Part shown: piece by piece, positions 47,261-64,000 of the stretch | Numbering within the stretch: position 1 is the first letter of the stretch | Layout of the letters: every line of letters begins with the position of its first letter | Origin: Aurantibacter crassamenti | GTDB taxonomy: Bacteria > Bacteroidota > Bacteroidia > Flavobacteriales > Flavobacteriaceae | Length of the DNA: 64,000 nucleotides | Reading direction: 5' to 3' | Assembly: GCF_016811105.1 (NCBI RefSeq) | Contig: NZ_JAFBGM010000001.1 | Coordinates: 2,422,126 to 2,486,125 of the forward strand | Notes under the pieces: model-generated | Database searches by the model: none | Told to the model about the DNA's origin: nothing | Seen by the model: the letters and a program-made list of their open reading frames with translations, nothing else | Program-made: the position numbers and the translations under genes

Positions 47261-49681
47261 TTATTCTTTCCTTAAACTTTTTATTGGGTCAACATTAGCA
47301 GCTTTAACAGCTTGAAAACTGATGGTTAAAAGTGCAATTAGTAATACACCCATAATAGCGGCAGCAAATACCCACCAAGGTATAACAATACGGTTGGTAT
47401 AGTTTTCCAACCATTGTTCCATAAAATAATAAGAAACAGGAATCGATATAAGCCCTGAAACCAATATCAATATTGCAAATTCTTTGGAGAGCATTTTAAA
47501 TAGACTTGAAATGGATGCCCCCAACACTTTTCTGATTCCGATTTCTTTGGTGCGTTGTTCCGCCATAAATATAGCCAGACCAAACAACCCTAAGCAGCTT
47601 ATAAGAAGTGCCAAAAATGAGAATATTCCCGATAATTTTCTCATACGTTCTTCAGCTTTAAATTTGTTTCCGAAGGCGGTATCAACAAATTGATAATCAA
47701 ACGGAACACTAGGCGCAAATTTTTGAAAAACCGATTCTATTTGAGCCAACGATTCCGTAACACTTTTGCCCGGTGCTAATTTTAGATTGATTAAATTGGT
47801 TTCATCGTATTGTATAGTATATATACATTGCTTCACCGGTTCAAAGGGCGATTCTGTTATCAGGTTTTTGACCACACCTATGATTTTATGCTCCCCATCA
47901 GACCATCGTATGGTTTTCCCAATTGGGTCTAGCAGGTTCATATATTTTACGGCAGCTTCGTTCAAGATGTACGCAGAGGAGTCCGAAGCAAAATCCCTTG
48001 AAAAATCGCGCCCCTGAGCCATTTCCCATCCTACGGTTTTTCCAAAATCGTGCGACACGTAATTACTATTAATATTGGTTATAAAATTAGAATCCTTTCC
48101 TTCCCATTCATATCCGCCGTTACTGTGCCAGACATCTGTTAGTGGGCTTGAAGATTCTGTCATTTCGGTAACTGCTCCTGTTTTTTTCAATGCTTCACGT
48201 AGTGAATTGTACTTGCCATCAAAATCTTCAGTACTTTTTTCTATCATGATAAGTTCGTTCTTATCATAGCCTATTGGTAGATTTTTGGCATGTTGAATCT
48301 GCCGATTAACCACTACAGTGCCCACTATCAGAATAATGGAAACTGTAAATTGAATTATGACAAGTGCTTTGCGAAACGACATTGTTGATGATCCTGTACG
48401 AAGCGTTCCCTTTAATACAGTTATCGGGCGGAATGATGACAGGTAGAGTGCTGGGTAGCTTCCTGCCAATATGCTTGTAACCATGACCAACCCCAAACCA
48501 ATGGACCAAAATATAGGATTAAAGAGTGGGAAAATTATGTTTTTGTCGGCCAATTGATTGAACAACGGCAAAACCAACGCAACAAGTGCAATGGCTAGTA
48601 AAAAGGCACTAAGAGTTACTATAAACGATTCAAACATAAACTGCCCAACCAATTGCTTTTTGTTTGACCCTACGGTTTTTCGTATACCTACTTCTTTGGC
48701 TCTTTTTTGAGCTCTAGCGGTAGAAAGATTCATGAAATTAATGCAGGCCAATAACAGTACAAAAATTCCGATGATACCGAACATTCGAACATATTGAATA
48801 GCCCCGCCAACAGATACCCCGTTTTTAAAACTGGATTTTAAATGCCAATCTTTCATAGGATGAAGAAAGATTTGCGGTTTACTTTGTTTGCTGTAATCAG
48901 GAACATGATTATAAAGTATATTCTCTATTTTATCATTAACGTCTTGCATAGAAGACCGATCGGATATTTGCACATATATTTGATAGGAATTGTTGTCCCA
49001 TAATTTTCTGTCTCGTGCCGTTTTCACCCAATCGTTTGAGGCAACGTAAAGATCCCAAGGAGCTATAAATTGGAGTTTCTTTGGTTCTGAAAAAGCACTA
49101 AGGGCGTCAAAAATATTTGAATTGCTGGGTAGCTCTTCAAAAACACCTTTTATGGTCACGTATTTGTCGTTATTTACCTTAATGGTTTTGCCCATAGGAT
49201 CTTCATAGCCGAAGAATGCTTTGGCTGTAGATTCAGAAATTACAATGGAATTTGGGTCGTTTAGGGCATCATGATTTCCCTTTAGCATATTTAATGAGAA
49301 CATCCGAAGGGCGTCTTTCTCCATAAAGGCACCGTATTCGTTCAGGTTTTTTTCTTCTACGGATAAAATATTGTCCCCTGGGAAGCAACCCATAACTACA
49401 TGTTCAAAATCATCTGCGTAGGTATTTCGTAATTCATCAGCCAACGGATAGGGTAAGGTATATCGGGTACGGGTTTCGCCATTGTTTGTTTTATTAACCA
49501 ATATTTGCGCAATGTACTGATGGTTCTTAAAATTTGTATTGTAACTTGTTTCATCATAGATCCATAACCCTATTAGAATGGTGATGGCAAGACCCAAAGC
49601 CAGTCCACCAATATTGAGAAGGGAATAGGTCTTGTTCTTTAACAAGTTCCTAAACGTGATTTTTATATAGTTTTTAAACAT
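47261..49681 (-). CDS. Duplicated MacB/FtsX-type ABC permease (permease 4)
   Basis: An 806-residue permease of the two-half plan. From the ATG at 49681 it begins MFKNYIKITFRNLLKNKTYS; an ATG seven codons earlier lies in the spacer hairpin region and is less likely. The first FtsX starts KEVGIRKTVGSNKKQLVGQF and the second KEIGIRKVLGASISSLFKML. The tail NPVKSLR is here DPIKSLRKE. The closest relative in the array is permease 3. It is the last gene of the long unit from 63.1 kb and is followed by 245 bp holding the permease 3 promoter. No terminator was recognised after it. Confidence 0.9.
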   Translation of the reverse strand: MFKNYIKITFRNLLKNKTYSLLNIGGLALGLAITILIGLWIYDETSYNTNFKNHQYIAQILVNKTNNGETRTRYTLPYPLADELRNTYADDFEHVVMGCFPGDNILSVEEKNLNEYGAFMEKDALRMFSLNMLKGNHDALNDPNSIVISESTAKAFFGYEDPMGKTIKVNNDKYVTIKGVFEELPSNSNIFDALSAFSEPKKLQFIAPWDLYVASNDWVKTARDRKLWDNNSYQIYVQISDRSSMQDVNDKIENILYNHVPDYSKQSKPQIFLHPMKDWHLKSSFKNGVSVGGAIQYVRMFGIIGIFVLLLACINFMNLSTARAQKRAKEVGIRKTVGSNKKQLVGQFMFESFIVTLSAFLLAIALVALVLPLFNQLADKNIIFPLFNPIFWSIGLGLVMVTSILAGSYPALYLSSFRPITVLKGTLRTGSSTMSFRKALVIIQFTVSIILIVGTVVVNRQIQHAKNLPIGYDKNELIMIEKSTEDFDGKYNSLREALKKTGAVTEMTESSSPLTDVWHSNGGYEWEGKDSNFITNINSNYVSHDFGKTVGWEMAQGRDFSRDFASDSSAYILNEAAVKYMNLLDPIGKTIRWSDGEHKIIGVVKNLITESPFEPVKQCIYTIQYDETNLINLKLAPGKSVTESLAQIESVFQKFAPSVPFDYQFVDTAFGNKFKAEERMRKLSGIFSFLALLISCLGLFGLAIFMAEQRTKEIGIRKVLGASISSLFKMLSKEFAILILVSGLISIPVSYYFMEQWLENYTNRIVIPWWVFAAAIMGVLLIALLTISFQAVKAANVDPIKSLRKE

Positions 49682-49695
49682 GATGCGTGTTTTTT

Positions 49696-49730
49696 GATCC
49701 ACCAGAGGCGGACAAGTTGATGCTGTTATT
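49696..49730 (-). repeat. Intergenic hairpin repeat, copy 2
   Basis: Minus-strand TCCGCC-TCT-GGTGGA forms a six-pair stem with one G-T pair. It is followed in the plus direction by AAGTTGATGCTGTTAT, the same flank as in copies 3 and 4. Confidence 0.75.
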
Positions 49731-49733
49731 TAT

Positions 49734-52208
49734 TCATTCTGAGCGTAAACTTTTTGTTGGGTTAGCCATTGCTGATTTTAAAGATTGAAAACCAATAGTT
49801 AACATAGCAATTGTTAATGCAATAATCCCTGACAATAAAAACAACCACCAAGGCATTTCAATTTTATATGCAAAATCTTGCAACCACTTATCCATAAAAT
49901 ACCAAGCAATTGGGGAAGCAATTAGCATGGCAATTACAAGCACTTTTATAAAGTCGCTTGCTAGTAAGCTTACGATTTCAGTAATAGTTGCACCCAATAC
50001 TTTTCGTATGCCTATTTCTTTTGTTTTCTGCTGTGCTGTGAAAGCAATTAGCCCTAAAAGGCCCATACAAGCAATAAAAATGGTTAAGAATGCGAATACA
50101 CTAAATAGGTTTGCCTGCCTTTGGTCTGAATCATAAGCGGCGTTTAAATCATCATCTAAAAAAGCATACTCGAATGGGATATTGGGCTGGTAGCTAGTCC
50201 ATTTGCTTTCAATATTTGCTATAAGTTTTGCAACGTTTTTAGATTTTATTTTTATGGTGATATAAGAAACACCTGTTGAATAACTTTTCGATGCGTTTGA
50301 GAATAGTGCAAAGGGTTGAATATGGCTATGTAGCGATTCCAAGTTAAAATCCTTTAAAACACCAACCACCTTGTAAGATTCCATTTTGCCGCCTGGGTAT
50401 TGAATCATACTACCGATGGGGTTTTGCCATCCTATTTCTTTGGCCGCAGCTTCATTAATAATTACAGATAAAGAATCATTGAATTTGGGCTCAAAACCTC
50501 TTCCTTCAGTAAGTTTTAAATCTAAAGTTGACATAAAATGTTCATCAACCAAGTAAGATTGTAAAATAATATCTTTTGCAATAGTATCGTCCGAATTAAT
50601 TGTTTCTGGAAAGTAAAAATCTCCAAAAGCATCTTTAGTAATCATACCTGAAGAAATTGAAGCACTATTTACTTCTGATAACCCTTCAAGTTCTGATCTA
50701 AAGGTTTCTTCACTACCCTCAAGTTTTTCGGTATTTTGAACAACTAATAAATTTTCTTTATCATACCCTAAGTCTCGATTTTGCGCATAGTTCAATTGCA
50801 GATAAATAACTCCAGTGGCAATAATCATAATTATAGCAATGGTAAACTGAAAAACTACGAGTCCATTTCCAATAAATCCACCTTTATTAGTTGATGTGCC
50901 TGCCACCCCTTTTAGCACATGAACCGCCTTGAAGGAAGTTAAATAAAAAGCGGGATATATACCCGCCAAAAGGGCAGTTAATAAACTAAGACAAAGAATA
51001 AATAACCAGATTCCATTTTGAAATATCGTTTCAAAAGGAAGTGTTTTACCTGCTAACTGATTAAATACTGGTAAAATAAACCAAACGATTAAAATTGCTA
51101 AAATTGTAGCAATAATTGTATAGAACATAGCTTCAACAAGAAATTGTTTTACAAGCTGAATTCTAGGCGAACCTAACACTTTACGGATGCCAATTTCTTT
51201 ACTTCTTTTTGATGCCTGAGCCGTCGCTAAATTCACAAAATTAACAGAAGCTAAAACGATTATAAAAAATGCAATAACACCAAATATGTATAAATTATTG
51301 ATGCTGTTTTGTTCGGTAATTGCAGATTCTATTTCACCTGAATGCAAATGAATATCTGTCAATGCTTGTAAGTGTAAGTCCCATTTATTTCCATTTTCTA
51401 AAAACTCTTCATAGGGCTGTCCAATTCGATCAAAAGCATTTGCGGCGTGTACTCTAATGAATTCAGGAAATTGAGATTCTAAATGAGCCACTGTTCTCGG
51501 ATTTGAAGCAGCTTTTTCTGTCAATTTCACGTAGGTTGCCATTTGCAGCCAAACCCAACTCCAGTTAAAGTAAGTGACACTTCCAAAATTTTTAACAGGC
51601 ATTAGTATATCAAAAGTTACTGAAGTTTGTAATTCAGTCATATCTTGCAAAACACCTGTGACTTTTAAAGGCTTTCTTTCTTTTCCGTAGAAAAGAATTT
51701 TTCCCATAGGGTCAACATCGCCAAAATATTTTTGTGCGATTTGATTTGTAATAACAATACTGTTTAATTCTGAAAGGCAAGTTTGTGGATTGCCTTTTAG
51801 CAATGGATAACTTAAGATATCTAGAAAATTTGCATCTACAGCATAGACATTATTTTCATTAAATGTTTGCTTTTCTGTACCATTGGAATATTCAATAACA
51901 TCAACGCCGGGTCTATAAATTCGGGTATAGCTCTCAATCTCAGGGAAATTAGCAACAAGTGTTTCTCCTGCTGGTGGTGGTGTGTAGCCATTATAAAATT
52001 CGCCATCACCCATCTTCCCATTTATATTAACGCGATATACTTGGTCAGCATCTTTGAAGAAACGGTCGTAGCCTAATTCATCAGTAATAAATAAAGCAAT
52101 CAAAATCACACAGGTTAACCCAATAGCAAGACTAGAAATATTGATAATGCTATAGCTCTTCTGCCTAATAGCATTTCTAAATGCGATTTTGAAATAGTTT
52201 TTAAACAT
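49734..52208 (-). CDS. Duplicated MacB/FtsX-type ABC permease (permease 5)
   Basis: An 824-residue permease starting MFKNYFKIAFRNAIRQKSYS. The first helix pair region reads ISSLAIGLTCVILIALFITD. The first FtsX starts KEIGIRKVLGSPRIQLVKQF and the second KEIGIRKVLGATITEIVSLL, and it ends NPTKSLRSE. The periplasmic domain of the first half is longer than in permeases 3 and 4 and contains WSWVWLQMATYVKL. This WVW wording is also seen in permease 2 (NSWVWPEFYNYVKL), so these two may share substrate-facing features. It is in the middle of the long unit, 27 bp downstream of permease 6. Confidence 0.9.
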   Translation of the reverse strand: MFKNYFKIAFRNAIRQKSYSIINISSLAIGLTCVILIALFITDELGYDRFFKDADQVYRVNINGKMGDGEFYNGYTPPPAGETLVANFPEIESYTRIYRPGVDVIEYSNGTEKQTFNENNVYAVDANFLDILSYPLLKGNPQTCLSELNSIVITNQIAQKYFGDVDPMGKILFYGKERKPLKVTGVLQDMTELQTSVTFDILMPVKNFGSVTYFNWSWVWLQMATYVKLTEKAASNPRTVAHLESQFPEFIRVHAANAFDRIGQPYEEFLENGNKWDLHLQALTDIHLHSGEIESAITEQNSINNLYIFGVIAFFIIVLASVNFVNLATAQASKRSKEIGIRKVLGSPRIQLVKQFLVEAMFYTIIATILAILIVWFILPVFNQLAGKTLPFETIFQNGIWLFILCLSLLTALLAGIYPAFYLTSFKAVHVLKGVAGTSTNKGGFIGNGLVVFQFTIAIIMIIATGVIYLQLNYAQNRDLGYDKENLLVVQNTEKLEGSEETFRSELEGLSEVNSASISSGMITKDAFGDFYFPETINSDDTIAKDIILQSYLVDEHFMSTLDLKLTEGRGFEPKFNDSLSVIINEAAAKEIGWQNPIGSMIQYPGGKMESYKVVGVLKDFNLESLHSHIQPFALFSNASKSYSTGVSYITIKIKSKNVAKLIANIESKWTSYQPNIPFEYAFLDDDLNAAYDSDQRQANLFSVFAFLTIFIACMGLLGLIAFTAQQKTKEIGIRKVLGATITEIVSLLASDFIKVLVIAMLIASPIAWYFMDKWLQDFAYKIEMPWWLFLLSGIIALTIAMLTIGFQSLKSAMANPTKSLRSE

Positions 52209-52235
52209 GATGCGTGTTTTTAGCTGATAAATGAT

Positions 52236-54617
52236 TTACTCCGTTCGCAAACTTTTTACGGGGTTGGCTTTTGCTGCTTTTATACTTTGAAAACTGATAG
52301 TAACCATAGCGATTATTAATGAAATAAAACCTACTAATACGAACACCCACCAATCTATCTCTATTCGGTAAGCGAAACCTTGAAGCCAGTCATTCATAAA
52401 ATAATACGCTATAGGAAAAGCAACAAGCAATGCAATAACCACCAATTTTAAAAAATCTTTGGAAACGAGTAACACTATGGCAACAGTAGAAGAACCCAAT
52501 ACTTTTCTTATGCCTATTTCTTTGGTTCGTTGAATAACACTATGCGATACCAAACCAAACATACCGATACTTGCTATAAAAAGTGCCAGCATTGTAAAAA
52601 TGTTAAATGTACTGCCCAATCTTACTTCACTATTATAAAGTTGGGCATACGTATCATCCAAAAATTTAACGTCAAAAGGCACCAATGGCACCGCCTCATT
52701 CATTACTGAAATGATATACTTTTTTGTTTCTTCAAAATTATTGGGGTTAATAGTCATAATTACCTCACCAAAAGTTTTGGCCCATTGAGGCCTCATTCGC
52801 ATATAAAGAGGTTCAATAGCCAGATCGAATTTTTGAATATGAAAATCTTTAACAACCCCAATTATGTGTCCATCATCAAACTCTTTTCCTACTGATGTTT
52901 TCCAACCTAAAGACTTGGCCGCCGTCTCGTTAATGATATAGGCCTCTTTTTCATCTGTTGCAAAATCTTCAGAAAACGCTCTGCCCTCAACGATCTCCAT
53001 ACCTAAAACATCTATGAAATCATAATCTACAAAAGCTCTATAAATTCCGAGCTGTTCCTTGTTGGTATTGCCCTCCCAGTTATAAATGGGCCCTTGATTA
53101 TCAAAATCAAGAGGTATTTGAGAACTTATGGAAACCTTATTTATCCTAGAATTTTTAAGCAGTTCGTTTCTTATAACAGCTTCATTCTCGGCAATTTCAT
53201 TGGTCGAATAGGTTACGTGAACAATATGTTCTTTATCGTAACCTAAGTTTTTGTTTTGCGTAAATTGAAGTTGTTGGTATATGATTAAACTGCCTATTGC
53301 TAAAACAGTTGCTGTAGTAAATTGTCCTACTACCAAACCGTTTCTAAGTCTGGCATTTCTTCCTTTATTTTTTAAAAAGTTGCCCTTAAAAGCTTTAATC
53401 GGTGAAACACTTGAAAGGAAAACTGCTGGGTAAAGACCGGAAAGACTTCCTACTATAATAGCCATACAAAACATACCAGGTAGTAACCACTTATTACCTA
53501 CTATGTCGAACGGAATGTTCTTGTCTAGCAACTGACCAAATTCAGGTAAAAGTAGAAAGGCCAACCCCAAGGCGAGTAAAAAACTAAAAATGGTAAAAAG
53601 AAATGATTCGCCTAAGAACTGAGCTATAAGATGTTGTCTATTGGCTCCTAAAACCTTGGTCATGCCAATTTCTCTTGCTCTTTGCGCCGACCGTACTGTG
53701 GTCAAGTTCATATAATTAATAGACGCCAATAATAAGATAACAAAAGCGATCAGGCTGTAGAGATAAACGTATTTCATATCTCCATTCGGCGTCAGTTCAA
53801 AATTAACTTTGGAGTATAGATGAATATCTTTTAAAGGCTGAAGTTTATAAATAGGTGGTTTTAGCCCTTCCTTTGCATAGGCTTCTTTGGGATGCTTTCG
53901 ATAAACTAATAGCTTAGCTTCCAATTCTCTAAAATCAGTTCCTTGGGCCAATTTCACGTAAGTTACTGCGGCATTATTTCCCCATGCATTACTATTTTTT
54001 AAGTATGACGGAGCGGCACTTATTGAAGCAATATAAGAGTAGTTAAAATGTTGATTTTTGGGAGGGTCAGCAATGACTCCTTTAATCGTAAACTCGGCAC
54101 TACGATTAAAAGTTATGGTTTGGTTTAAGGGAGATTCACTTCCAAAAAACTTTTTAGCCAAGCTTTCGGTAAGTAGAACATTCAAAGGATCCTCTAAGGC
54201 GGATTTTCCCACCCCTGAAATCAGCTTAACAGTAAAAACATCAAAAAAGCCTCTGTCTGCGAAAATACCTTTCTCGTTAAATACCTCTTCGCCTCTGTTT
54301 AACAGATTCGAACGCAAATCAATACCTGTTTTAGCCTCTACTTCCGGAAAATCACTAACCATGGCCGTGCCTAACGGCAAAGGCGTACCAGAAAACAAAT
54401 CGGTGCCTTTAAATTCATTGCCCGGTTGTTTGCTAATAACCCTATAAATATCATCTACATTTTCGTGTTGCTTATCATAACTGAGTTCATACTGCACAAA
54501 AAGAGCTATTAGAATAAAAGAGGTCATCCCAATGGTCAAACCAGATAAATTAATAATGGAATACAATCTTCCTTTTTTAAAATTTCGCCAGGCGATTTTT
54601 AGATAGTTTTTGAACAT
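52236..54617 (-). CDS. Duplicated MacB/FtsX-type ABC permease (permease 6)
   Basis: A 793-residue permease starting MFKNYLKIAWRNFKKGRLYS. Its first FtsX motif reads REIGMTKVLGANRQHLIAQF, with Met-Thr where the others have an Ile/Val/Leu-Arg/Lys pair. The second reads KEIGIRKVLGSSTVAIVLLV, preceded by LVSHSVIQRT instead of the AxxAEQ(R/K) wording. It ends NPVKSLRTE. The periplasmic part has a QPLKDIHLYSKVNFELTPNG segment related to the one in permeases 2 and 8. It lies between permeases 5 and 7 in the long unit, and the spacer on its 5' side carries hairpin repeat copy 3. Confidence 0.9.
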   Translation of the reverse strand: MFKNYLKIAWRNFKKGRLYSIINLSGLTIGMTSFILIALFVQYELSYDKQHENVDDIYRVISKQPGNEFKGTDLFSGTPLPLGTAMVSDFPEVEAKTGIDLRSNLLNRGEEVFNEKGIFADRGFFDVFTVKLISGVGKSALEDPLNVLLTESLAKKFFGSESPLNQTITFNRSAEFTIKGVIADPPKNQHFNYSYIASISAAPSYLKNSNAWGNNAAVTYVKLAQGTDFRELEAKLLVYRKHPKEAYAKEGLKPPIYKLQPLKDIHLYSKVNFELTPNGDMKYVYLYSLIAFVILLLASINYMNLTTVRSAQRAREIGMTKVLGANRQHLIAQFLGESFLFTIFSFLLALGLAFLLLPEFGQLLDKNIPFDIVGNKWLLPGMFCMAIIVGSLSGLYPAVFLSSVSPIKAFKGNFLKNKGRNARLRNGLVVGQFTTATVLAIGSLIIYQQLQFTQNKNLGYDKEHIVHVTYSTNEIAENEAVIRNELLKNSRINKVSISSQIPLDFDNQGPIYNWEGNTNKEQLGIYRAFVDYDFIDVLGMEIVEGRAFSEDFATDEKEAYIINETAAKSLGWKTSVGKEFDDGHIIGVVKDFHIQKFDLAIEPLYMRMRPQWAKTFGEVIMTINPNNFEETKKYIISVMNEAVPLVPFDVKFLDDTYAQLYNSEVRLGSTFNIFTMLALFIASIGMFGLVSHSVIQRTKEIGIRKVLGSSTVAIVLLVSKDFLKLVVIALLVAFPIAYYFMNDWLQGFAYRIEIDWWVFVLVGFISLIIAMVTISFQSIKAAKANPVKSLRTE

Positions 54618-54632
54618 GATTCTAGTTTTTTT

Positions 54633-54668
54633 AATCCACTAGAAGCGGACAAGTTGATGCTGTTATTT
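54633..54668 (-). repeat. Intergenic hairpin repeat, copy 3
   Basis: Minus-strand TCCGCT-TCT-AGTGGA forms a six-pair stem. Its loop-closing pair is T-A where copies 1 and 2 have C-G, a compensatory change that keeps the stem. Confidence 0.75.
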
Positions 54669-54670
54669 TT

Positions 54671-57103
54671 TCACTCTGAACGTAAACTTTTCACTGGGTT
54701 AACTATAGCTGCTTTTATGCTTTGATAACTAACTGTTGCTATGGCTATGCCAATTGCCATTAACGCGGCAAGACCAAAAACCCACCAGGCGATTTCAATT
54801 CGATATGAAAAATCTTGTAGCCATCTATCCATGGCGAACCACCCAAGTGGAATTGAAATTAAAATTCCAATAAAAACTAGTTTTAAAAAGTCTACGGTTA
54901 ATCTATATGAGATTTGACCTACTGATGCACCGAGCACTTTTCTAACACCTATTTCTTTTTTTCGTTTCTCGGCGTTAAATGCTGCCAACCCAAATAAACC
55001 AAGACATGCGATAAGAATTGAAAGAATAGTGAACACGATAAATATTTGTCCTAATTTTTTTTCTGCCTTATACGTTGTATTAAAAGCCTCGTCCATAAAA
55101 GTGTAGTCAAAGGGCTGACCTGGGGCAAGTTTGTTCCAAATATTTTCTATTTGAGCCAAAGAGGTTGATAAATTATCTATCTGCAATTTAATGGCTAGTG
55201 AACCTCTTGATTCACCTATTTGCATGCTTAAACCTCTTATGTTTTTTTTCAAGGTTTCGAAATGGAAATCTTTGACCACGCCTACAATTGTAGTAAAGAC
55301 TACTCCATCATCATCTGTTGGTCTAGTAATTCGTAATCCGATTGCTTCTTCAGGGCTAACATTCATGATTTTCAATGCAGCTTCATTTACAATCAATCCT
55401 AACGAATCTGTTACAATAGACTGGTCAAAATCTCGCCCAGCAACTAATTTTAAATTCATGGTTTTGAGATAGTCATAGTCCACCGTCCAGCTTTGCATTT
55501 GAATGGCATGTTCTTGTTCCATCTTACCTTCTAGAAAATATGAATTGTCTCTTCTGTAAGATTCGGTTGGTAAATAACCAGTTAGGGTTGCATTTTCTAC
55601 GAATGCCAATTGTTGAATTTCTTCTTTAAAATTTTTGGCTTTATCACCTGCCGAATATACATTGTCAACTAGTACAATCTTTTCTTTAGAGTATCCTAAA
55701 TCTTTATTTTGGATAAAATCTAATTGTTGAAAAACCACTATTGTACTTATGATTAAGAATATAGAAATGGCAAATTGAAAAACGACTAATGAGCTTCTTA
55801 AACCAGAACCGCCTGCCGATTTATTGCCACCACCTTTTAAAACTTTGACTGGCATAAAACGTGACATGAAAAAAGCAGGGTAAATACCGGCAAGTAAACC
55901 GATTAGTAATGTAGCCGAAAGCAATACCATCCAAAAAACTGGATTAAGAAAAGGAATCGACATTTCTTTATCTGCCAATTGATTAAAAAATGGCATAGCA
56001 ATAAATGAAATTACCACAGCAAAGAGTAGGGAGAAAAAAGTGATAAGGCCAGATTCTGATAAAAACTGCTGCACCAATTCTCTTTTACCCGAACCTAAGG
56101 TTTTACGAACGCCAACTTCTTTGGCTCTTTTTAAAGAATACGCCGTGGAAAGATTCATAAAATTAACGCAGGCCAACACCATTAGAAACAAGGCTAAAAA
56201 TGATAAGATATATACGTCTTGTATATCACCATTTTCACTAAATTCTGGGTATCTATGTGACTTTAAATGAATATCGGTAAGCGGAATTGTATTGTAGCGA
56301 AGGTAATTTCCGGAAGCCAAAAACTGCTCTGCGGTTATGCCCGGAAAAGTTTCTTGTGCATACGGAATCACATATTGCTCAAACATTTTGTCTATGCCAA
56401 TTTGTACGTCTTCTATTTTTGCAGAAGGTATGAGTTTTACAAAAGTTGGAAAATCATGACTTCCCCATTCATCATCTCTAGATTCTTCCCAACCAGACAT
56501 CGCCATAAAAATATGATGGTCTTTTAAAAAGGAATTTTTAGGTAAATCTTCAATAATACCAGTTACTGTGTAGGTATCGGTATTGCTTAAAATCATTTTT
56601 TGCCCGATAGCATTATTAAGACTAAAATGTTTTTCTGCGGCAGTTTTGGTTAAAACCATTGTGTTTGGTTCTTTTAAAGCCGTTTTTACATCTCCGTGAA
56701 GTAAACTTAAATCAAACATCGTGAAGAACGTATCATCAACAAAGGTTGCATTCGATTCTTTTACATTGTCTGTCACATCACTTTTACGAATTAGCATACT
56801 ATACCTATTCCTAAAACGGGTTGTCATTTCAACTTGGGGAATATCATTTTTGATTGCTGCTGCCATAGGTGCAGAAACTTCGGCAAATTCACGAGCTTCA
56901 CCACCAAATTTTACGTCAGCATTAATACGGTGAATACGATTTGCATCAGTAAACATTTTATCATAACTGAATTCGTCGTAAATATATATTGTGATAAGTA
57001 ATGCCCCCGTCAAACCAATAGCAAGGCCGAATATATTTAGGCCTGTAAAAAAGGGTTGGTTTTTTAGACTTCGCCAAGCTATTTTTAGATGATTTTTAAA
57101 CAT
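54671..57103 (-). CDS. Duplicated MacB/FtsX-type ABC permease (permease 7)
   Basis: An 810-residue permease starting MFKNHLKIAWRSLKNQPFFT. The first FtsX motif is KEVGVRKTLGSGKRELVQQF and the second KEIGVRKVLGASVGQISYRL, preceded by FNAEKRKKE. It ends NPVKSLRSE. A Gly/Ser-rich stretch (GGGNKSAGGSGL) precedes the second-half membrane helix and probably forms the cytoplasmic linker between halves. The stop codon is 2 bp from hairpin repeat copy 3. By eye it is closest to permease 8 in the last quarter (FTILSILIACLGLFGL against FTILAILISCLGLFGL). Confidence 0.9.
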   Translation of the reverse strand: MFKNHLKIAWRSLKNQPFFTGLNIFGLAIGLTGALLITIYIYDEFSYDKMFTDANRIHRINADVKFGGEAREFAEVSAPMAAAIKNDIPQVEMTTRFRNRYSMLIRKSDVTDNVKESNATFVDDTFFTMFDLSLLHGDVKTALKEPNTMVLTKTAAEKHFSLNNAIGQKMILSNTDTYTVTGIIEDLPKNSFLKDHHIFMAMSGWEESRDDEWGSHDFPTFVKLIPSAKIEDVQIGIDKMFEQYVIPYAQETFPGITAEQFLASGNYLRYNTIPLTDIHLKSHRYPEFSENGDIQDVYILSFLALFLMVLACVNFMNLSTAYSLKRAKEVGVRKTLGSGKRELVQQFLSESGLITFFSLLFAVVISFIAMPFFNQLADKEMSIPFLNPVFWMVLLSATLLIGLLAGIYPAFFMSRFMPVKVLKGGGNKSAGGSGLRSSLVVFQFAISIFLIISTIVVFQQLDFIQNKDLGYSKEKIVLVDNVYSAGDKAKNFKEEIQQLAFVENATLTGYLPTESYRRDNSYFLEGKMEQEHAIQMQSWTVDYDYLKTMNLKLVAGRDFDQSIVTDSLGLIVNEAALKIMNVSPEEAIGLRITRPTDDDGVVFTTIVGVVKDFHFETLKKNIRGLSMQIGESRGSLAIKLQIDNLSTSLAQIENIWNKLAPGQPFDYTFMDEAFNTTYKAEKKLGQIFIVFTILSILIACLGLFGLAAFNAEKRKKEIGVRKVLGASVGQISYRLTVDFLKLVFIGILISIPLGWFAMDRWLQDFSYRIEIAWWVFGLAALMAIGIAIATVSYQSIKAAIVNPVKSLRSE

Positions 57104-57118
57104 GATTCTCGTTTTTTG

Positions 57119-57152
57119 ATCCGCTAGAGGCGGACAATTTGATGCTGTTATT
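57119..57152 (-). repeat. Intergenic hairpin repeat, copy 4
   Basis: Minus-strand TCCGC-CTCTA-GCGGA forms a five-pair perfect stem. The flank AATTTGATGCTGTTAT matches copies 2 and 3. Confidence 0.75.
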
Positions 57153-57155
57153 TTT

Positions 57156-59585
57156 TCATTCTGAACGTAAACTTTTAACTGGGTTGGCTACTGCAGATTT
57201 TAAAGATTGTAATCCTACAGTAAGTAATGTGATAACTATAGCAAAGCCACCTGCTAACCCAAATACCCACCATTGAATATCGATACGATAGGTAAAATCT
57301 TCAAGCCAACGTTCAATTAATAAATAGGAAATAGGCGTAGCAATTAAAAAAGCCATACATACTAATTTTATAAAATCTTTAGTGAGTAAGTGCACTACTG
57401 AATGAATGCTGGCACCTAATACTTTTCGAATGCCAATTTCTTTCTTCTTTTGTTCGGCCACATAGGAGATAAGACCGAAGAGTCCGAGACAACTGATTAA
57501 AATTGCAAGTATTGTAAAGACTATAGAAATTTGACCCAAGCGCTTTTCTTCGTCATATAGTTTCTCAACTTCTTTGTCTACAAATCTATAGTCGAAGGGA
57601 ATATTATTGACAGTTGATTTCCACTGTGATTCTAAATTTGAAAGTAGTTGTTCATAGTTGTCGGTTTCAGTTTTTATAAACAACCAGTTGGGTTCATTTT
57701 CTTTATGTAAAAATAATGGGGCAATTTCATCTTTTAAAGTGGCATAATGAAAGTCTGAAACAAGACCAATTATCTCCATCTCATACGTTTCATCACCGTA
57801 ACTTTGTACAAGTTTTGAGTTTAAGACTTCTTCTCTTTTTATATTAAAAGCTTTAATGGTAGCTTCATTCACTATAATTTGGTTGGTTGTATCCCCTTCA
57901 CGGAAATCTCTTCCTTTTAAAAATGGAATTCCCATTGTTTTAAAATAACCATCGCTTACACCATTGCGTTTTACAATAATATTTTTTTCTCTACTGCCAC
58001 CAGGTAAGTATAAACCGTTATCCGCTAGTACAATTTCTGATGGCGCATAATTTCCGCTAGATACATTAAGAACACCTGGGATATTTAAAAAAGCAGCTTT
58101 AATAGATTCAAACTTACTCGATGCTTCATTGGTGCCAATGCGTAACGCTAATAAATTATTTTTTTGAAAGCCTAGATTTTTACTCTGGGTATATTGAAAT
58201 TGTTGGGTAATAACAATAACTGTTGCGACTAAACCTATTGAAACAACAAACTGAAAAACAACCAAAGTCTTTCTAAAATTGCCATTCCCAGAGTTTAATA
58301 AATTTGAACCTTTTAATGCTTTTACGGGTTTTATTGAGGATAATATAATTGCGGGATATATACCAGCGACAAGACCCGTGAAAATTCCTAATCCAAATAA
58401 AATGAAACCGATTTTCCAGTTTAACAAATTAAGATAGCTCAAAGATTCTTGCGTAAGATCGTTGACAAATGGTAAAAGAAAAATAGCAATGGGTATACTA
58501 ATTATCATTGCGAAAATTGATAGCAAAATTGATTCGCTTAAGAACTGTCGCATTAGTGCATTTTTACCTGCACCTACTACTTTGCGAACCCCAATTTCTT
58601 TTGATCTTTTACTTGCACGTGCTGTACTTAGGTTTATGAAGTTGATACAAGCTACAAGTTGAATAAAAAATGCTAAAGTCAATAAAAAATACAGGTACTT
58701 AATATTCGATACTTTATCAATTTGGTTTTTTCGTCCATTAGAATATAAATGAATATCGGTTAGGTTAATAAGTGAGAGTATCTTATTATCCATACCAGCA
58801 TCAGAAAGATTTTTACCTCCTCGTTTTTGAATGAATTCTGGTAACTTATTTTGAAGACTAATAGGGTTGCCTTTGTTGGTAAGTTTTATGTAACTGTATA
58901 CAAAATTGTTGGTTGCGAAATCATCAAAAGTTTGTACAAAAGTTCCCATACCGGGAGTGCTCATACTAACAATGTAATTTGGGTTAAGGTGTGTTTTGTC
59001 AGATTTCTCATCAAAAACACCTTTTACAGTCAGTATTTGTGCATCTTCACCTGTACCCCAAACCACCGTTTTATCCAATACATCATAATTACCAAACATT
59101 TTATTTGCCAATTGCGATGAAAGTACCAAAGCATTCGGTCCGTTAAGTGCAGTTTTACTATTGCCTTTTAAAAACTTATAATCAAACATTTTAAAAAATG
59201 TAGAATCTGCCATGTAACTTCTAGGCTCATAAAAGGCATCATTACTTTCTGATGCTCGTATTAAATTGCTATAGAAAACATCGGTAAGTACAATTCTTGT
59301 TACTTCTTCAACTTCGCCAAAATCTTCTTTCATGGCAAAAGCAATTGGAGGTGAGGTGGTTGCAGAATCAAAATTTTCGTGACCGTCACGTTCAATAATG
59401 GTTTCTACTCTATAAATAGATGCTGCATCCGTAAAATGAACATCAAAACCAAACTGTGCAAAAACATAAAGTAGAATAGTAAGGCAACTAACTGTACCTA
59501 ATGTTAATCCTAGCAGATTAATAATAGTTTGTTGCTTATTCTTAGATAGATTTCTCCAAGCTATTTTGATGTTATTTTTTAACAT
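57156..59585 (-). CDS. Duplicated MacB/FtsX-type ABC permease (permease 8)
   Basis: An 809-residue permease starting MLKNNIKIAWRNLSKNKQQT, the first of six consecutive permease genes after the ATPase. The first FtsX motif is KEIGVRKVVGAGKNALMRQF and the second KEIGIRKVLGASIHSVVHLL. It ends NPVKSLRSE. The periplasmic domain of the second half includes YLPGGSREKNIIVKRNG, with no counterpart that I can see in the others. It lies 92 bp downstream of the canonical ATPase gene, a wider gap than in the rest of the unit, with no terminator or repeat in between. Confidence 0.9.
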   Translation of the reverse strand: MLKNNIKIAWRNLSKNKQQTIINLLGLTLGTVSCLTILLYVFAQFGFDVHFTDAASIYRVETIIERDGHENFDSATTSPPIAFAMKEDFGEVEEVTRIVLTDVFYSNLIRASESNDAFYEPRSYMADSTFFKMFDYKFLKGNSKTALNGPNALVLSSQLANKMFGNYDVLDKTVVWGTGEDAQILTVKGVFDEKSDKTHLNPNYIVSMSTPGMGTFVQTFDDFATNNFVYSYIKLTNKGNPISLQNKLPEFIQKRGGKNLSDAGMDNKILSLINLTDIHLYSNGRKNQIDKVSNIKYLYFLLTLAFFIQLVACINFINLSTARASKRSKEIGVRKVVGAGKNALMRQFLSESILLSIFAMIISIPIAIFLLPFVNDLTQESLSYLNLLNWKIGFILFGLGIFTGLVAGIYPAIILSSIKPVKALKGSNLLNSGNGNFRKTLVVFQFVVSIGLVATVIVITQQFQYTQSKNLGFQKNNLLALRIGTNEASSKFESIKAAFLNIPGVLNVSSGNYAPSEIVLADNGLYLPGGSREKNIIVKRNGVSDGYFKTMGIPFLKGRDFREGDTTNQIIVNEATIKAFNIKREEVLNSKLVQSYGDETYEMEIIGLVSDFHYATLKDEIAPLFLHKENEPNWLFIKTETDNYEQLLSNLESQWKSTVNNIPFDYRFVDKEVEKLYDEEKRLGQISIVFTILAILISCLGLFGLISYVAEQKKKEIGIRKVLGASIHSVVHLLTKDFIKLVCMAFLIATPISYLLIERWLEDFTYRIDIQWWVFGLAGGFAIVITLLTVGLQSLKSAVANPVKSLRSE

Positions 59586-59677: not shown

Positions 59678-60373
59678 TTAAATGGTTGCCCCGATAGCTC
59701 TATTTTTATTTTCAGTAACAATTTGGCCATCGAATAAATTGATGACTCTGTGTGCGTAATGTGAATCTCGATCTGAGTGGGTTACCATAACAATTGTAGT
59801 ACCTTCTTGATTTAATTCTGTTAAAAGATTCATTACTTCAATTCCGTTTTTTGAATCTAAGTTACCCGTTGGTTCATCCGCAAGAATTAATTTTGGATTT
59901 GTTACTACGGCTCTTGCGATGGCAACTCGTTGTTGCTGACCACCAGATAATTGATGTGGAAAATGTTTTTCTCGGTGTGCGATCTTCATACGTTCGAGTA
60001 CTTTCATCACTTTTTCGCGACGTTCACTTTTTCCCATTTTAAGGTAAATCAACGGTAATTCTACATTTTCGAAAACCGTTAGCTCGTCAATAAGGTTAAA
60101 ACTCTGAAAAACGAAACCTAAGTTTCCTTTTCGCAGTTCGGTACGTTGGCGTTCTTTAAGTCCGCCCACCTCATGACCAGCAAATTGGTAGCTGCCTTCA
60201 GTAGGGTTGTCAAGCATACCGATAATGTTCAGCAGCGTAGATTTACCACAACCAGAGGGTCCCATAATTGCCGCAAATTCACCATCTTCAACTTTAAAGT
60301 TTACATTATTTAGTGCCAAGGTTTCTACTTCTTCAGTTCTAAAACTTTTCTTTAAGTTTTGTATTTGTATCAT
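59678..60373 (-). CDS. ABC transporter ATP-binding protein, MacB/LolD type (canonical)
   Basis: A 231-residue ATPase with all standard motifs: Walker A GPSGCGKST (residues 38-46), Q-loop GFVFQSFNLIDEL, signature LSGGQQQRVAIARAV, Walker [14 protein letters not shown] with the normal D-loop, and switch histidine in VTHSDRDSHY. It is the only fully canonical ATPase of the array and is encoded between the adaptor and permease 8. It is therefore the best candidate to energise permeases 3-8 and possibly all eight. A MacAB-TolC-like tripartite exporter is the natural model, with this protein as the cytoplasmic motor. Confidence 0.94.
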   Translation of the reverse strand: MIQIQNLKKSFRTEEVETLALNNVNFKVEDGEFAAIMGPSGCGKSTLLNIIGMLDNPTEGSYQFAGHEVGGLKERQRTELRKGNLGFVFQSFNLIDELTVFENVELPLIYLKMGKSERREKVMKVLERMKIAHREKHFPHQLSGGQQQRVAIARAVVTNPKLILADEPTGNLDSKNGIEVMNLLTELNQEGTTIVMVTHSDRDSHYAHRVINLFDGQIVTENKNRAIGATI

Positions 60374-60434: not shown

Positions 60435-61685
60435 TTATTTTAAAACTATTTTTTCTGCTTCTCCAAAACTATCGTAATTACTGGTTATTACTTTTTCACC
60501 AGCCCGCAGGCCTTCTAACACTTCATAGTATCTAGAGTTTTGTTTTCCGATACGTATGTTTCGTTTTAATGCTTCATCACCGTCGGCGTTTACCACAAAA
60601 ATCCATTGACCACCCGTACTTTGAAAAAAGCTGCCTTTTGGCAACAATAAGGCATCGTTTGATTCACCTAATTGTAATTTGATATTATAGCTTTGCCCAG
60701 ATCTAATGGTTTCTGGTTTTTCTTCTGTAAAAACTAAATCCACTTTAAATTTTCCGTTACGTACTTCGGGGTATACTTTTCGCAATCGTAACGGGAACGC
60801 ATTGCCATTACGCTCTAGTACTGCAACTAAATCGCGTTGTACGCGATCAATATAATGTTCATCAATACTAGCTTCAATTTTGTAATCGGTAAGTACATTA
60901 ATTTGTCCGATGCGCTGACCTTGCGTTATATTTTGGCCAATTTCGGCATCAAGAAAACCCAGTTGTCCATCTGCAGGAGCACGTACGTTAAGATGATCTA
61001 AACGTTGGTAAACCATACCCAATGTTTTATGCATCCGATTTAAATCAGCTTCTAAAACAGGTAATGAAGTCTCTCTTAATTCATCGTCATTTTCGGTCTG
61101 TACTTTTACTATTTCATATTGTTTTTGAGAAAGTTCATAGTTTTCTTTAGAGAGTTGATATTCTTCTTTTGAAATCAATTCATCTTCAAACAGCGCTTGG
61201 TTTTGTTCAAAATTTCTTTTCAATCGTTGCAACTCCGTACTGGCCGTTGCTAAAGATTTTCTTCCATTTATTTGTCGTGAATCAAATTCAAGTCTTGTAG
61301 AACGTAAATTATTTTCCTTCAAGGCCATATTACTTTCACTGTTTAAAATCTGCTCGTAAAGGCCAATGTTATCAAGCTTTAAAATGATATCACCCTTTTT
61401 GACCATCGCACCTTCTTCTATCAATTTTTCATCAACTCGGCCACCTTCGTATGCATCCATATAAATAGTAGCAATAGGAGCAACATTACCATTTATAGTA
61501 ATGTAGTCATCAAATTTACCCTGCGTAACATCAGCTATTGATAGCTTATCTTTTTCAGTTCTAAAGGTTGACACCGATGTAGCGAATAGCAATTGATATC
61601 CCACAAAAAGTATTAAAATGCCAAGCGCAATATATCCGTAATGTTTTGGGCGTAATCCTTTTTTCTTTTCTAGTTGTATGTCCAT
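60435..61685 (-). CDS. HlyD/MacA-type periplasmic adaptor protein
   Basis: A 416-residue membrane-fusion protein. The first 16 residues are charged and cytoplasmic, followed by one anchor (YIALGILILFVGYQLLFA). The lipoyl half YEGGRVDEKLIEEGAMVKKG precedes a long coiled coil (about residues 110-225, rich in Leu, Glu and Gln) and the second lipoyl half VRAPADGQLGFLDAEIGQNI. Beta-barrel and membrane-proximal domains end with VLEGLRAGEKVITSNYDSFG. It would connect an ABC permease to the TolC-type channel encoded just upstream. It is the only adaptor in the window, so it probably serves several or all permeases. Confidence 0.92.
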   Translation of the reverse strand: MDIQLEKKKGLRPKHYGYIALGILILFVGYQLLFATSVSTFRTEKDKLSIADVTQGKFDDYITINGNVAPIATIYMDAYEGGRVDEKLIEEGAMVKKGDIILKLDNIGLYEQILNSESNMALKENNLRSTRLEFDSRQINGRKSLATASTELQRLKRNFEQNQALFEDELISKEEYQLSKENYELSQKQYEIVKVQTENDDELRETSLPVLEADLNRMHKTLGMVYQRLDHLNVRAPADGQLGFLDAEIGQNITQGQRIGQINVLTDYKIEASIDEHYIDRVQRDLVAVLERNGNAFPLRLRKVYPEVRNGKFKVDLVFTEEKPETIRSGQSYNIKLQLGESNDALLLPKGSFFQSTGGQWIFVVNADGDEALKRNIRIGKQNSRYYEVLEGLRAGEKVITSNYDSFGEAEKIVLK

Positions 61686-61753: not shown

Positions 61754-63097
61754 TTAATTAATATTAAATACGGGTAACCCATTATAAAAATCGAGTGTAC
61801 TTTGATTGATTTCTGACCTTAATCGTACTTGTAAATTTTCGTTTTGAGCACTTGCAAATAGATTTTTAGCGGTAAAAAGTTCAATTGCATTTATCATCCC
61901 TTTTTCATAACGTTTCTGAGCAATAGTAAATGCCAGTTGCTGCGCTTCCATTTTTTTTGTACTCTGATCAACTTCTATTTGTAAGGCTTCATATTCTTGA
62001 ACTAATTGTTGAATGGTTTGAAAAAGTTCTTGTTCTTGAATTTCTAGATTATTCTCGCTACGCAGACGTTCTATTTTGGCTTGTTTTACTCTTGATCTTG
62101 CAGACCAACCATTACTAATAGGTACGCTTAAATTTAAACCAACATATTGAGAAGTGTTATCTCTAAACTGCTCACGAAAGGGTAGGGTGTTACCTAAAGT
62201 ATCTCTGGTTGTTTCAAAATAACCAGTACCCGTTCCGGCAAAAGCTGATAATGACGGATATAATCTACCACGAGCAATTGCAACCTGCTTTTTTGCAGCC
62301 ATAGCACGTAATTCTTGTGCTTTGATCATTGGAAAAAATTCTTTAGCAGTTGCATAAACAGAATCTGTCTGCACGGTATTTTGTTGTTCAATAGTCTCTT
62401 TTTGCAGCACTGATTGAATTTCAATTTCACTTGTGTTTTCAATATTCATTTCTTGAATTAAGAGCAACTTAGCAGCCTTTAACTGATTCTCGCTTTGTGT
62501 AAGATTCAATTTATCAGTAAGTAATAATGATTCTGCTTCATAACGATCAGCACCGGCTTTTAGACCAAGTTCAATTTGCTTATTAACTAAATCAAAATTT
62601 GATTGCGAAACGTCTAATTGTTCATTAGCAATGGCCACTAAACCTTCATAAAATTGAATGTCATAGAACACTTGCATTACCCGAAAGGCAAGTAAGTATT
62701 TTTGTTGCAATGCATCTTGTTGTGTTGCTTTATACAAAAATTTAGAGGCTTTAATTGAATTTAATTTTTGAAAGCCCTGAAAAAGATCAATTGATGATTC
62801 TAAAGAATAATTGTTAGAAAAGAAATCTTGGGTAACGAATGTTCCTGTATTTGGATCTTCAGCTCTACCAAAACTGATATTATAACTAGTACCTGCGTTT
62901 ATATTTGGTAGTAGATTTCGAACTGATTGCCGATAGGTTTCTTTACCAGATTGCTCTGTATAATTAAAATCATTGAGTTGTAAATTATGAGTTAAAGCGT
63001 AAGCAATACATTCGTCTAGTGTCCATTTTTCTTGGGCAGCAACTCGTGATCCAATAAGGACCAGCAATGTAAGTAGTATTGAAAATTTCAAATTCAT
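61754..63097 (-). CDS. TolC-family outer-membrane efflux protein
   Basis: A 447-residue outer-membrane channel. From the ATG at 63097 the N-terminus MNLKFSILLTLLVLIGSRVA is a signal peptide ending near VAAQE. An ATG six codons earlier would add an unneeded extension and is closer to the predicted transcript start. The typical WTLDECIAYALTHNLQL opening is followed by two outer-membrane-efflux repeats with long helices, for example DRYEAESLLLTDKLNLTQSE and KRYEKGMINAIELFTAKNLF. It is the first gene of the long unit, about 15 bases from a sigma-54-like promoter start. It diverges from the regulator at 63.4 kb. Confidence 0.93.
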   Translation of the reverse strand: MNLKFSILLTLLVLIGSRVAAQEKWTLDECIAYALTHNLQLNDFNYTEQSGKETYRQSVRNLLPNINAGTSYNISFGRAEDPNTGTFVTQDFFSNNYSLESSIDLFQGFQKLNSIKASKFLYKATQQDALQQKYLLAFRVMQVFYDIQFYEGLVAIANEQLDVSQSNFDLVNKQIELGLKAGADRYEAESLLLTDKLNLTQSENQLKAAKLLLIQEMNIENTSEIEIQSVLQKETIEQQNTVQTDSVYATAKEFFPMIKAQELRAMAAKKQVAIARGRLYPSLSAFAGTGTGYFETTRDTLGNTLPFREQFRDNTSQYVGLNLSVPISNGWSARSRVKQAKIERLRSENNLEIQEQELFQTIQQLVQEYEALQIEVDQSTKKMEAQQLAFTIAQKRYEKGMINAIELFTAKNLFASAQNENLQVRLRSEINQSTLDFYNGLPVFNIN

Positions 63098-63121
63098 AAT
63101 ATATTGATATGCCAATCTATT

Positions 63122-63137
63122 AGCTATTCATGTGCCA
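63122..63137 (-). promoter_or_regulatory. Sigma-54 promoter of the TolC - adaptor - ATPase - permease unit
   Basis: On the minus strand TGGCACATGAATAGCT has the exact TGGCAC -24 half and GG-N10-GC spacing, with one mismatch to TTGCW in the -12 half. Transcription would start near 63112, about 15 bases before the ATG of the TolC gene. It is the best of the three matches in the array. Confidence 0.65.
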
Positions 63138-63192
63138 TAAAATTAACAATCTGAATATCAGTTGGTTGCGATTAATTTTAAAAAATGAATCG

Positions 63193-63230
63193 TTTTACAC
63201 TGTAAAATAGTTTTACAAGTATTGTCAAAA
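63193..63230. promoter_or_regulatory. Paired dyads (upstream activator sites) for the 63.1-kb promoter
   Basis: TTTTACA-C-TGTAAAA (63193-63207) is a perfect palindrome. TTTTACA-AGTAT-TGTCAAAA (63211-63230) is near perfect. Their centres are about 20 bp apart, about 64 and 85 bp upstream of the -24 GG. The gene for a sigma-54 activator starts 147 bp further on. Confidence 0.6.
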
Positions 63231-63376
63231 AATTGGACACATTGCTCAAAAAGTAAATTACTAATTGTAGTTTTAAAAATACGTTGACTCCCATTAATAG
63301 GAGTCTCAATACAATTTTATAATTGATTGAATTTAATTGGAATGTTTTTTGGGAGCTTTTTACTAAACTGTGAAAT

Positions 63377-64000
63377 ATGTTAAATGCCAAGATTTTAGTT
63401 GTAGACGACAACAAAAGTGTATTGAGTGCTCTTGAGATACTTTTGCAGTTTGAGTATCAAACCGTTGAAACAATTTCAAACCCTAATCAATTACCCTCAT
63501 TTAAAGATTTACCTGATTTTGACATAGTATTACTTGATATGAATTTTTCGGCTGGAGTTAATACAGGTAATGAAGGACTTTATTGGTTGCGAGAAATTAG
63601 AAAGAAAGCACCTGAGATATCTGTTATTATGATGACTGCATATGGTGCTGTTGATTTAGCTGTAAAAGCATTAAAAGAGGGAGCTGCTGATTTTGTGTTG
63701 AAACCATGGAACAATGATAAACTTTTGGCAACAGTTAAGTCGGCTTATGAATTGCGAAAATCACGTAAAGAGGTTAATAAGCTAAAACAGAAAGAGGATA
63801 ATCTTAAGCAAGTAATCAATCAGCAAAAGAATTATATTATTGGTAATTCTAAGGCTTTAAACACCGTATTGAAATTGGTTGGTAAGGTGGCTAAAACAGA
63901 TGTAAATGTTTTAGTAACTGGTGAGAACGGAACAGGAAAAGAATTGATAGCTAGAGAATTACATAATTTGTCATTGCGAAAAAACGAAGTTTTTATTGCA
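63377..64000 (+). CDS. Sigma-54-dependent response regulator, NtrC family (C-terminus beyond window)
   Basis: The first 208 codons are present. A receiver domain (residues 1-120) begins MLNAKILVVDDNKSVLSALE, with phospho-acceptor Asp54 in VLLDMNF, MMTAYG and the conserved Lys in FVLKPWN. A helical linker rich in Lys and Gln follows. The AAA+ domain begins IIGNSKALNTVL and shows Walker A TGENGTGKELIAREL, the form of sigma-54 activators. The GAFTGA loop and DNA-binding domain lie outside. The gene diverges from the TolC gene, across the region holding the sigma-54 promoter and dyads. A partner histidine kinase is expected downstream but not seen here. Confidence 0.95.
   Translation, partial: MLNAKILVVDDNKSVLSALEILLQFEYQTVETISNPNQLPSFKDLPDFDIVLLDMNFSAGVNTGNEGLYWLREIRKKAPEISVIMMTAYGAVDLAVKALKEGAADFVLKPWNNDKLLATVKSAYELRKSRKEVNKLKQKEDNLKQVINQQKNYIIGNSKALNTVLKLVGKVAKTDVNVLVTGENGTGKELIARELHNLSLRKNEVFIA

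Follow-up and report, generated by a model that had tools for sequence, protein, structure and literature searches.

A predicted sigma-54 regulon joining a TolC-type export cluster and dispersed ADOP-like permeases in Aurantibacter crassamenti and other Flavobacteriaceae

Known sigma-54 activators and FtsX-type transporters

Sites of the form TGT-N10-12-ACA belong to a known class of sigma-54 activators, which includes FhlA, NifA, and Clostridiales groups; 170 of the 263 activators described control one operon and the others two to six, and most sites lie at 100-250 bp (PMC6615313). The locus described here resembles these systems in that a Fis-type HTH activator is encoded beside its target, together with multiple TGT...ACA dyads and a TTGGCA-type promoter. 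It differs from the regulons of that study by a tandem placed at 51-65 bp with a fixed phase, and by the 14 tandem places of a single genome, G020. The general link between sigma-54 and FtsX-type permeases is already known, since sigma-54 promoters are enriched at FtsX-like (COG0577) permeases, including those of the class Bacteroidia, in a report that calls this a first (PMC12316311). The present locus shares the association of sigma-54 with this permease type; in the part of that report drawn on here, no activator, operator, histidine kinase, or dispersed-permease regulon is named (PMC12316311). In Flavobacterium psychrophilum, transcription starts place a sigma-54 motif at genes for chaperones, envelope stress, and gliding, and a sigma-54 interaction domain has been noted in three proteins (PMC9723704). 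No published description of the regulator, operator, and dispersed-permease regulon presented below was found in literature searches that covered mainly openly accessible papers.

Regarding the permeases, their best NCBIfam match is the ADOP family of "duplicated orphan permeases" (TIGR03434), with which they share a length of about 800 aa and the presence of two FtsX and two MacB-like domains. In Group II ECF importers, one energising module serves many membrane parts scattered in the genome. These importers differ from the present system by the direction of transport and by their unrelated proteins, and the sharing of a module is in our case inferred only. As for two-component systems acting with FtsX-type transporters, BceR is OmpR-type and is not known to depend on sigma-54. 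The BceRS-BceAB system nevertheless resembles the present one in combining a kinase without a dedicated sensing domain, as read by eye for the present one, with an FtsX-type ABC transporter, and transporter cycling is the proposed signal for BceS (PMC10314905). Unlike the system examined here, Bce modules are described for Firmicutes and without TolC (PMC10314905). By analogy, the BceS-like layout of the kinase suggests that permease activity may be the signal here.

Gene content of the locus

All positions refer to the window, i.e., the whole stretch of 64,000 nucleotides of A. crassamenti DNA that was analyzed. As an earlier note on this DNA had proposed, a gene for an NtrC-type response regulator (63377..64000, plus strand; the first 208 of 453 aa, the remainder lying beyond the window) is divergent from a TolC unit. 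On L001:377-1738, its product displays the PF00072, PF00158, and PF02954 domains, namely a receiver, an AAA+ sigma-54 domain, and a Fis-type HTH. A histidine kinase gene follows beyond the window (L001:1829-3178). By eye, the kinase has two membrane helices with few residues between them and is without an extracytoplasmic domain, as are the 14 orthologues viewed out of 78. Downstream of the kinase gene, L001:3433-10053 carries an apparent uronate-catabolism set (dehydrogenase, mannonate-dehydratase, sugar-kinase, and aldolase types, named from the translations) together with a TRAP transporter.

The remaining genes are all on the minus strand. The promoter termed P1 precedes a TolC-type outer-membrane channel (61754..63097), a periplasmic adaptor (60435..61685), the MacB/LolD/DarD-like ABC ATPase 1 (59678..60373), and five ADOP-like permeases, A-E (47261..59585), which are separated by gaps of 27-53 bp and recognized by Pfam for A, B, and E and by TIGR03434 for all five. 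TolC is listed as an open reading frame from TTG 63115, a codon that coincides with or precedes the expected transcription start; read from the sequence, ATG 63097, with a signal-peptide-like sequence behind it, is the more likely start. Behind P3 lies permease F (44619..47015), and behind P2 are found permeases G (40636-43128) and H (38274-40643) and the ABC ATPase 2 (37576..38238). TolC, adaptor, ATPase, and MacB/FtsX permease are encoded together, which is the gene set of a MacAB-TolC-type exporter. The eight permeases of the earlier note are thus borne out as FtsX/MacB-type genes; the single ATPase that it placed in the unit corresponds to ATPase 1, but a second ATPase gene exists.

All eight full-length TIGR03434-like permeases found in the A. 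crassamenti genome sit behind P1-P3, and the other four TIGR03434 matches are half-length frames of 413-430 aa near C1:1.90 Mb. The scores (274.9-302.5 bits for the three permeases scanned, and up to 325.7) stay below the cut-off of 622.3 bits, and no match above it was found in 8 genomes; by that test, these permeases are relatives of ADOP rather than members.

The tandem dyads and the sigma-54 boxes

Read on the coding strand, the three promoter regions have in common a 17-bp dyad, TGTNAAA-N3-TTTNACA, present twice with 22 bp between centres. The candidate activator sites are all on the minus strand, at 63201..63239 for P1 (proximal dyad 63201-63217, TGTAAAACTATTTTACA; distal dyad 63223-63239, TGTCCAATTTTTTGACA; 22 bp apart), 47163..47201 for P3 (proximal 47163-47179, distal 47185-47201), and 43245..43283 for P2 (proximal 43245-43261, distal 43267-43283). 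The dyads are A+T-rich and near-palindromic, and at each promoter the distal copy is more degenerate than the proximal one.

With up to three mismatches, the tandem pattern matches exactly the three promoter sites in the window (0 in 100 shuffles) and exactly three places in the 4.52-Mb genome, namely P1, P2, and P3. These are the promoters named in the earlier note. The reversed control gives no match in this genome or in any of the 8 genomes searched. The pattern was built from sites of these same 8 genomes, which partly accounts for its being found there; no such circularity affects its absence from the remainder of their sequence, the control, or the survey of further genomes. A perfect single dyad occurs at five places in the 4.52-Mb genome, three of them the proximal dyads of P1-P3, against six in the reversed control, so that, taken singly, dyads are no rarer than expected by chance. 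The other two (C1:876133 and C2:1086648) are without a tandem partner, and no permease match is found in the 4.5 kb around each.

The dyads had previously been framed in another register, across the gap between the true dyads: each TTTTACA/TGTNAAAA pair combines the halves by which two neighbouring dyads face each other, and the gaps are unequal. In that register, TTTTACA-N-TGTAAAA with up to two mismatches has 2 matches in the window against a shuffle mean of 2.7, and the 43.2-kb promoter shows none. With the shifted register, all eight genomes compared display 3-bp centres and the 22-bp spacing. Hence the pair of dyads at all three promoters stands, with a spacing of 22 bp and not about 20, and the centres formerly placed 64 and 85 bp upstream of the -24 GG at P1 and P2 (54 and 74 bp at P3) move to about 73 and 95 bp (about 63 and 85 bp at P3). 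The intervals earlier suggested for binding tests cut off the distal half-site.

The predicted sigma-54 promoters, also on the minus strand, share the form TGGCAY-N5-TNG[CT]. P1 (63122..63137; TGGCACATGAATAGCT = TGGCAC-N5-TAGCT, the 63.1-kb copy reading TGGCACATGAATAGC) opens the TolC unit as first noticed, and the TGGCA-type boxes formerly reported at permeases 2 and 3 are found again at P2 (43167..43181; TGGCACGAAAATCGT = TGGCAC-N5-TCGT) and P3 (47095..47109; TGGCATGAAATTAGT = TGGCAT-N5-TAGT). The -24/-12 pair takes the form GG-N10-GC at P1 and GG-N10-GT at P2 and P3. The box begins 63 bp past the end of the tandem at P1 and P2 and 53 bp past it at P3; the third distance does differ by about one helical turn. 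A single rpoN match (PF04552) was obtained in each of the 12 genomes searched out of 12, A. crassamenti included.

Taken alone, the -24/-12 box was rejected as evidence, with 14 matches in the window against 11.5 expected and no excess over chance; a stricter form of the box is enriched genome-wide (23 against 6 in the reversed control). A loose half-site-to-box scan proved too permissive (82 matches against 47 in the reversed control). A promoter and terminator scan of 44500-63380 is uninformative on operon ends, since its counts are at or below those of shuffles (62 against 70.1 and 12 against 12.6, respectively).

Conservation and co-occurrence with the regulator

In a survey of 299 Flavobacteriaceae genomes, the tandem (up to two mismatches; 48 genomes) is present in 43 of the 44 genomes with an orthologous regulator (at least 62% identity) and in 5 of the 255 without. 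The corresponding table (both 43, regulator only 1, tandem only 5, neither 250) gives a Fisher p of 4e-45, a value that overstates independence because the genomes are related. The reversed control yields one match in one genome. In G062, the one genome with the regulator only, a contig ends 72 bp from the regulator match. Four of the five genomes with the tandem only have two-mismatch matches, and the fifth is G250. In G250, a gene for an 834-aa exported-looking protein is preceded by a strong tandem (L241:2179) and, 63 bp past the tandem, AGGCAC-N5-TGGC, no orthologous regulator being found in this genome at the threshold used.

The tandem lies between the regulator and TolC genes, always with 22 bp, in 8 genomes with an orthologous regulator (62-100% identity, A. 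crassamenti included), and is followed at 63-65 bp by a TGGCAY or CGGCAT box. A set of 80 named loci, mostly from Flavobacteriaceae (Maribacter, Zobellia, Cellulophaga, Arenibacter, Pricia, and others), repeats some survey genomes and overlaps these 8. Three of the loci have too little upstream DNA; in all 77 with at least 250 bp, the tandem (up to three mismatches) is found upstream of the regulator gene, and TGGCAY stands at 62 bp in 15, 63 bp in 56, and 64 bp in 4.

The comparison of orthologous promoters suggested by the earlier note gives an uneven result. Counterparts of P1 were seen in all genomes examined. For P3, one is present in G001, of the same genus, before the permease F orthologue, and tandems precede close relatives of permease F (77-80%) in G100, G310, and G075. 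P2, however, is without a counterpart in G001, where the permease G orthologue lies directly behind another permease. G003 and G013 have one tandem each. With P1 stable and P2 and P3 patchy, targets appear to be gained and lost fast around a stable core promoter.

Targets in other genomes

Further sites were taken from the matches listed for the 48 tandem-bearing genomes, the home sites of G241, G242, G252, and G260 being seen separately. By first gene, the 67 sites in the fetched regions comprise 32 regulator-TolC sites, 27 permease sites, 2 ATPase 2 sites, and 6 with none of these; 61 of the 67, among the matches listed, thus precede TolC, a permease, or ATPase 2. ATPase 2 is preceded by a tandem of its own and a GGCA-type -24 box in G154 and G075, and in G002 a second tandem lies ahead of a further permease (L064).

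In G020, 14 tandem places are found, one at home and 13 dispersed. Immediately downstream of ten of the 13 is an ADOP-like permease that does not belong to the home array. The other three lie before non-permease genes (L053:6760, L053:15262, and L056:6903), the first genes being a DUF2268/GldB-like protein, a DUF2807 protein, and genes without a Pfam match; these may possibly be further members of the regulon. Scored by a weight matrix, the G020 sites reach 27.7-38.9 bits; the 66 sites used to train the matrix included the window's three but none from G020, so that only the G020 scores are independent. It is these dispersed sites that turn a local observation into a predicted dispersed regulon.

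At least 45 TIGR03434 matches were counted in G020, 27 in the TolC-adjacent array and 18 dispersed. The true number may be higher, as 46 of 58 candidates were scored (E up to 1e-30) and one permease frame, L063:4101-6518, is outside the 45. Among the 18 dispersed matches, 10 have a tandem, one has dyads with a 23-bp spacing, and seven are without. Six dispersed permeases were rechecked: L236 has its tandem at 23 and not 22 bp, and none was found at L235 and L237-L240. The array itself (C2:754170-821642; L036-L038 and L066) has its 27 ADOP-like matches behind one TolC/adaptor/ATPase set. In G003 and G013, by comparison, 2 permeases adjoin TolC, suggesting rapid expansion and loss.

Distance to the -24 box and helical phase

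As the tandem was searched independently of the -24 box, the position of TGGCAY relative to it is an independent readout. Across 76 target-assigned sites, TGGCAY lies 61-65 bp past the tandem in 60 and 51-53 bp past it in 10 (70 of 76 in all). The first class contains all 33 TolC promoters, and the ten sites of the second are permease promoters; in the remaining six sites, near-matches (e.g., CGGCAT or TGGTAT) lie at 53 or 62-64 bp. The two classes are about 10.5 bp apart, i.e., one turn, and the 22 bp between dyads amounts to about two. Both spacings are compatible with an activator that stays on the same side of the helix close to the polymerase.

The 76 sites are the three of the window, 61 of the 67 from further genomes, L135 (where the gene is not a permease), the 10 dispersed permease sites of G020, and L064. 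Some come from close genomes (e.g., G100/G310 and G069/G177/G295), and the counts are therefore not independent events. L142 was scored as a TolC site from its regulator alone, the contig ending there. Not counted among the 76 are G020's two sites on L053 and one on L056; L105:5008, because its first gene is a 249-aa frame with the permease match behind it; L101, L138, L139, and L143, which are two-mismatch matches without a target; L065 (G034), a three-mismatch match; and the home sites and the G001 permease F site, which already belong to the 8-genome comparison.

Of the 33 TolC promoters, 24 have a second conserved TGGCAY, placed 23 bp below the first and 85-88 bp past the tandem, which the other 43 assigned sites all lack. 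Among the 77 named loci, this second TGGCAY was counted 59 times at 85-87 bp, and its copy in the window (63109-63114) overlaps the expected transcription start.

A related regulator group with another putative operator

The next-closest regulators (L011-L020, 44-51% identity) adjoin their own kinase. Divergent from them is an adaptor gene in 9 of 10 loci (some 900 bp off in L019), and an ATPase and a permease in L011. The tandem described above is absent at all loci L011-L032. A different one, mostly TGTTCG-N4-CGAACA or TGTATC-N5-CGAACA with copies 21-23 bp apart, is found in seven of the ten related loci, followed by a TGGYA- or CGGCA-type box at 63-65 bp in five and 52 bp in two; at L015, L017, and L019 the geometry script detected no tandem with a -24-like box. 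The recognition helix is mostly TRAALYRR or TRTALYRR in this group, against SRQTLYNK in the group of the window. With at most one mismatch, the second tandem is present in 20 of the 299 genomes and absent from A. crassamenti; among the 44 genomes bearing the first regulator, G160 alone has it. The reversed control is 0 in the listed genomes. In the 10 of these 20 genomes for which positions were compared, the second tandem lies 31-56 bp from the regulator match.

This paired change of helix and half-site at the same geometry is the strongest argument, drawn from comparison, that the regulator itself would read the dyads. As to contact with sigma-54, which is made by the GAFTGA loop, this loop is a variant in the 88 aligned rows of the group, GSFTDA in 74 and GAFTDA in 14. 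GAFTGA variants can be functional.

The proposed sigma-54 regulon and its alternatives

Taken as a whole, the data are very probably best explained by one sigma-54 regulon serving one export system. The histidine kinase, apparently devoid of an extracytoplasmic domain, would phosphorylate the NtrC-type regulator encoded next to it. The regulator would bind two 17-bp dyads separated by two helical turns and activate sigma-54 RNA polymerase at TGGCAY-N5-TNG[CT] through a short-range loop of about 60-70 bp. P1 would thus switch on TolC, the adaptor, ATPase 1, and five permeases, P3 permease F, and P2 permeases G and H and ATPase 2, with presumed co-transcription across gaps of 27-92 bp. In A. crassamenti, the regulon would take in every full-length ADOP-like permease detected. 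The regulon proposed in the earlier note gains support from the restriction of the tandem to three promoters, the co-occurrence with the regulator, the fixed distance of TGGCAY, the joint change of half-site and helix, and the single sigma-54 gene. Sequence comparison shows the composite element with its exclusive placement, conservation, and fixed helical phase, as well as its being inherited and diverging together with the regulator, and gives high confidence in the regulon. The regulon appears well supported, is of a known kind in its mechanism, and is unusual in that its permeases are dispersed. Less in line with it are the missing P2 counterpart in G001, the 7 dispersed permeases of G020 without a tandem and its 3 dispersed tandems before other genes, the tandem of G250, the variant GAFTGA loop, and the lack of ATPase 2 in 8 of the 44 regulator-bearing genomes.

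Some observations can also be read otherwise. Chance resemblance of A+T-rich intergenic DNA to dyads and -24/-12 boxes would account for the lack of excess of the dyad as first drawn and of the -24/-12 box alone in the window, but it is hardly credible given a tandem with no match in shuffles and a reversed control that is empty in 8 genomes and gives one match in 299. It is also improbable that the dyads are bound by another protein, such as a repressor or a DNA-bending protein inherited with the locus, the NtrC-type regulator acting elsewhere. Such a protein could well bind A+T-rich, near-palindromic sites, regulator binding is a prediction, and G250 has a tandem without an orthologous regulator; against this stand the tandem in 43 of 44 genomes with the regulator and 5 of 255 without, half-sites and recognition helices that differ together between regulator groups at the same geometry, and a fixed distance to the -24 box that fits an activator of the sigma-54 polymerase.

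A smaller regulon, in which the tandem would be used mainly at the TolC promoter and many permeases would be expressed from other promoters or by read-through, is unlikely but deserves more weight. The TolC site is the only one conserved throughout, G003 and G013 have a single tandem, and none is found at 7 of the 18 listed dispersed permeases of G020. Under such a restriction, however, the 27 further permease-linked sites elsewhere and the 10 of G020, which obey the same phase constraint, are difficult to understand. The regulon that includes the dispersed permeases provides a concrete assignment of regulator, operator, promoter, and targets for a marine flavobacterial export system whose permeases are otherwise unlinked genes, and its motif locates further candidate members anywhere in a genome. 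In addition, the joint difference in operator and recognition helix between two regulator groups, with the geometry fixed, represents a natural specificity switch, and the 63- or 53-bp spacing over dozens of genomes a natural experiment on the helical phasing of short-range sigma-54 activation.

The two ATPases and a possible shared export engine

Confidence that all permeases use one channel with one or two ATPases is moderate. The shared channel of the earlier note is deduced from the cluster's single TolC gene and single adaptor gene. If the permeases do share one engine, the system would be an export counterpart of shared-module importers. A more far-reaching and tentative proposal is a modular exporter, in which one TolC/adaptor/ATPase set would serve many interchangeable permeases recruited genome-wide by a promoter cassette of fixed geometry, with a kinase sensing inside the membrane, the signal being perhaps the cycling of the permeases themselves. 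Where both are present, ATPases 1 and 2 would then form a mixed pair under two unequal permease halves.

The two ATPases are indeed distinguished by constant differences, which suggest unequal roles and a mixed ATPase pair. The D-loop reads GNLD in 74 of 74 ATPase 1 sequences and GNLN in 27 of 32 ATPase 2 sequences, the other five being missed by the search string, and the residue just past the signature is R in 74/74 and L in 32/32, respectively. ATPase 2 (E up to 1e-95) occurs in 36 of the 44 regulator-bearing genomes and 27 of the 255 others, several of these 27 carrying the related regulator. It is absent in G003 and G013 and hence not required there. Among the dispersed permeases of G020 without a tandem, the one at L240:1-4028 adjoins a partial ATPase gene that is 90% identical to ATPase 1.
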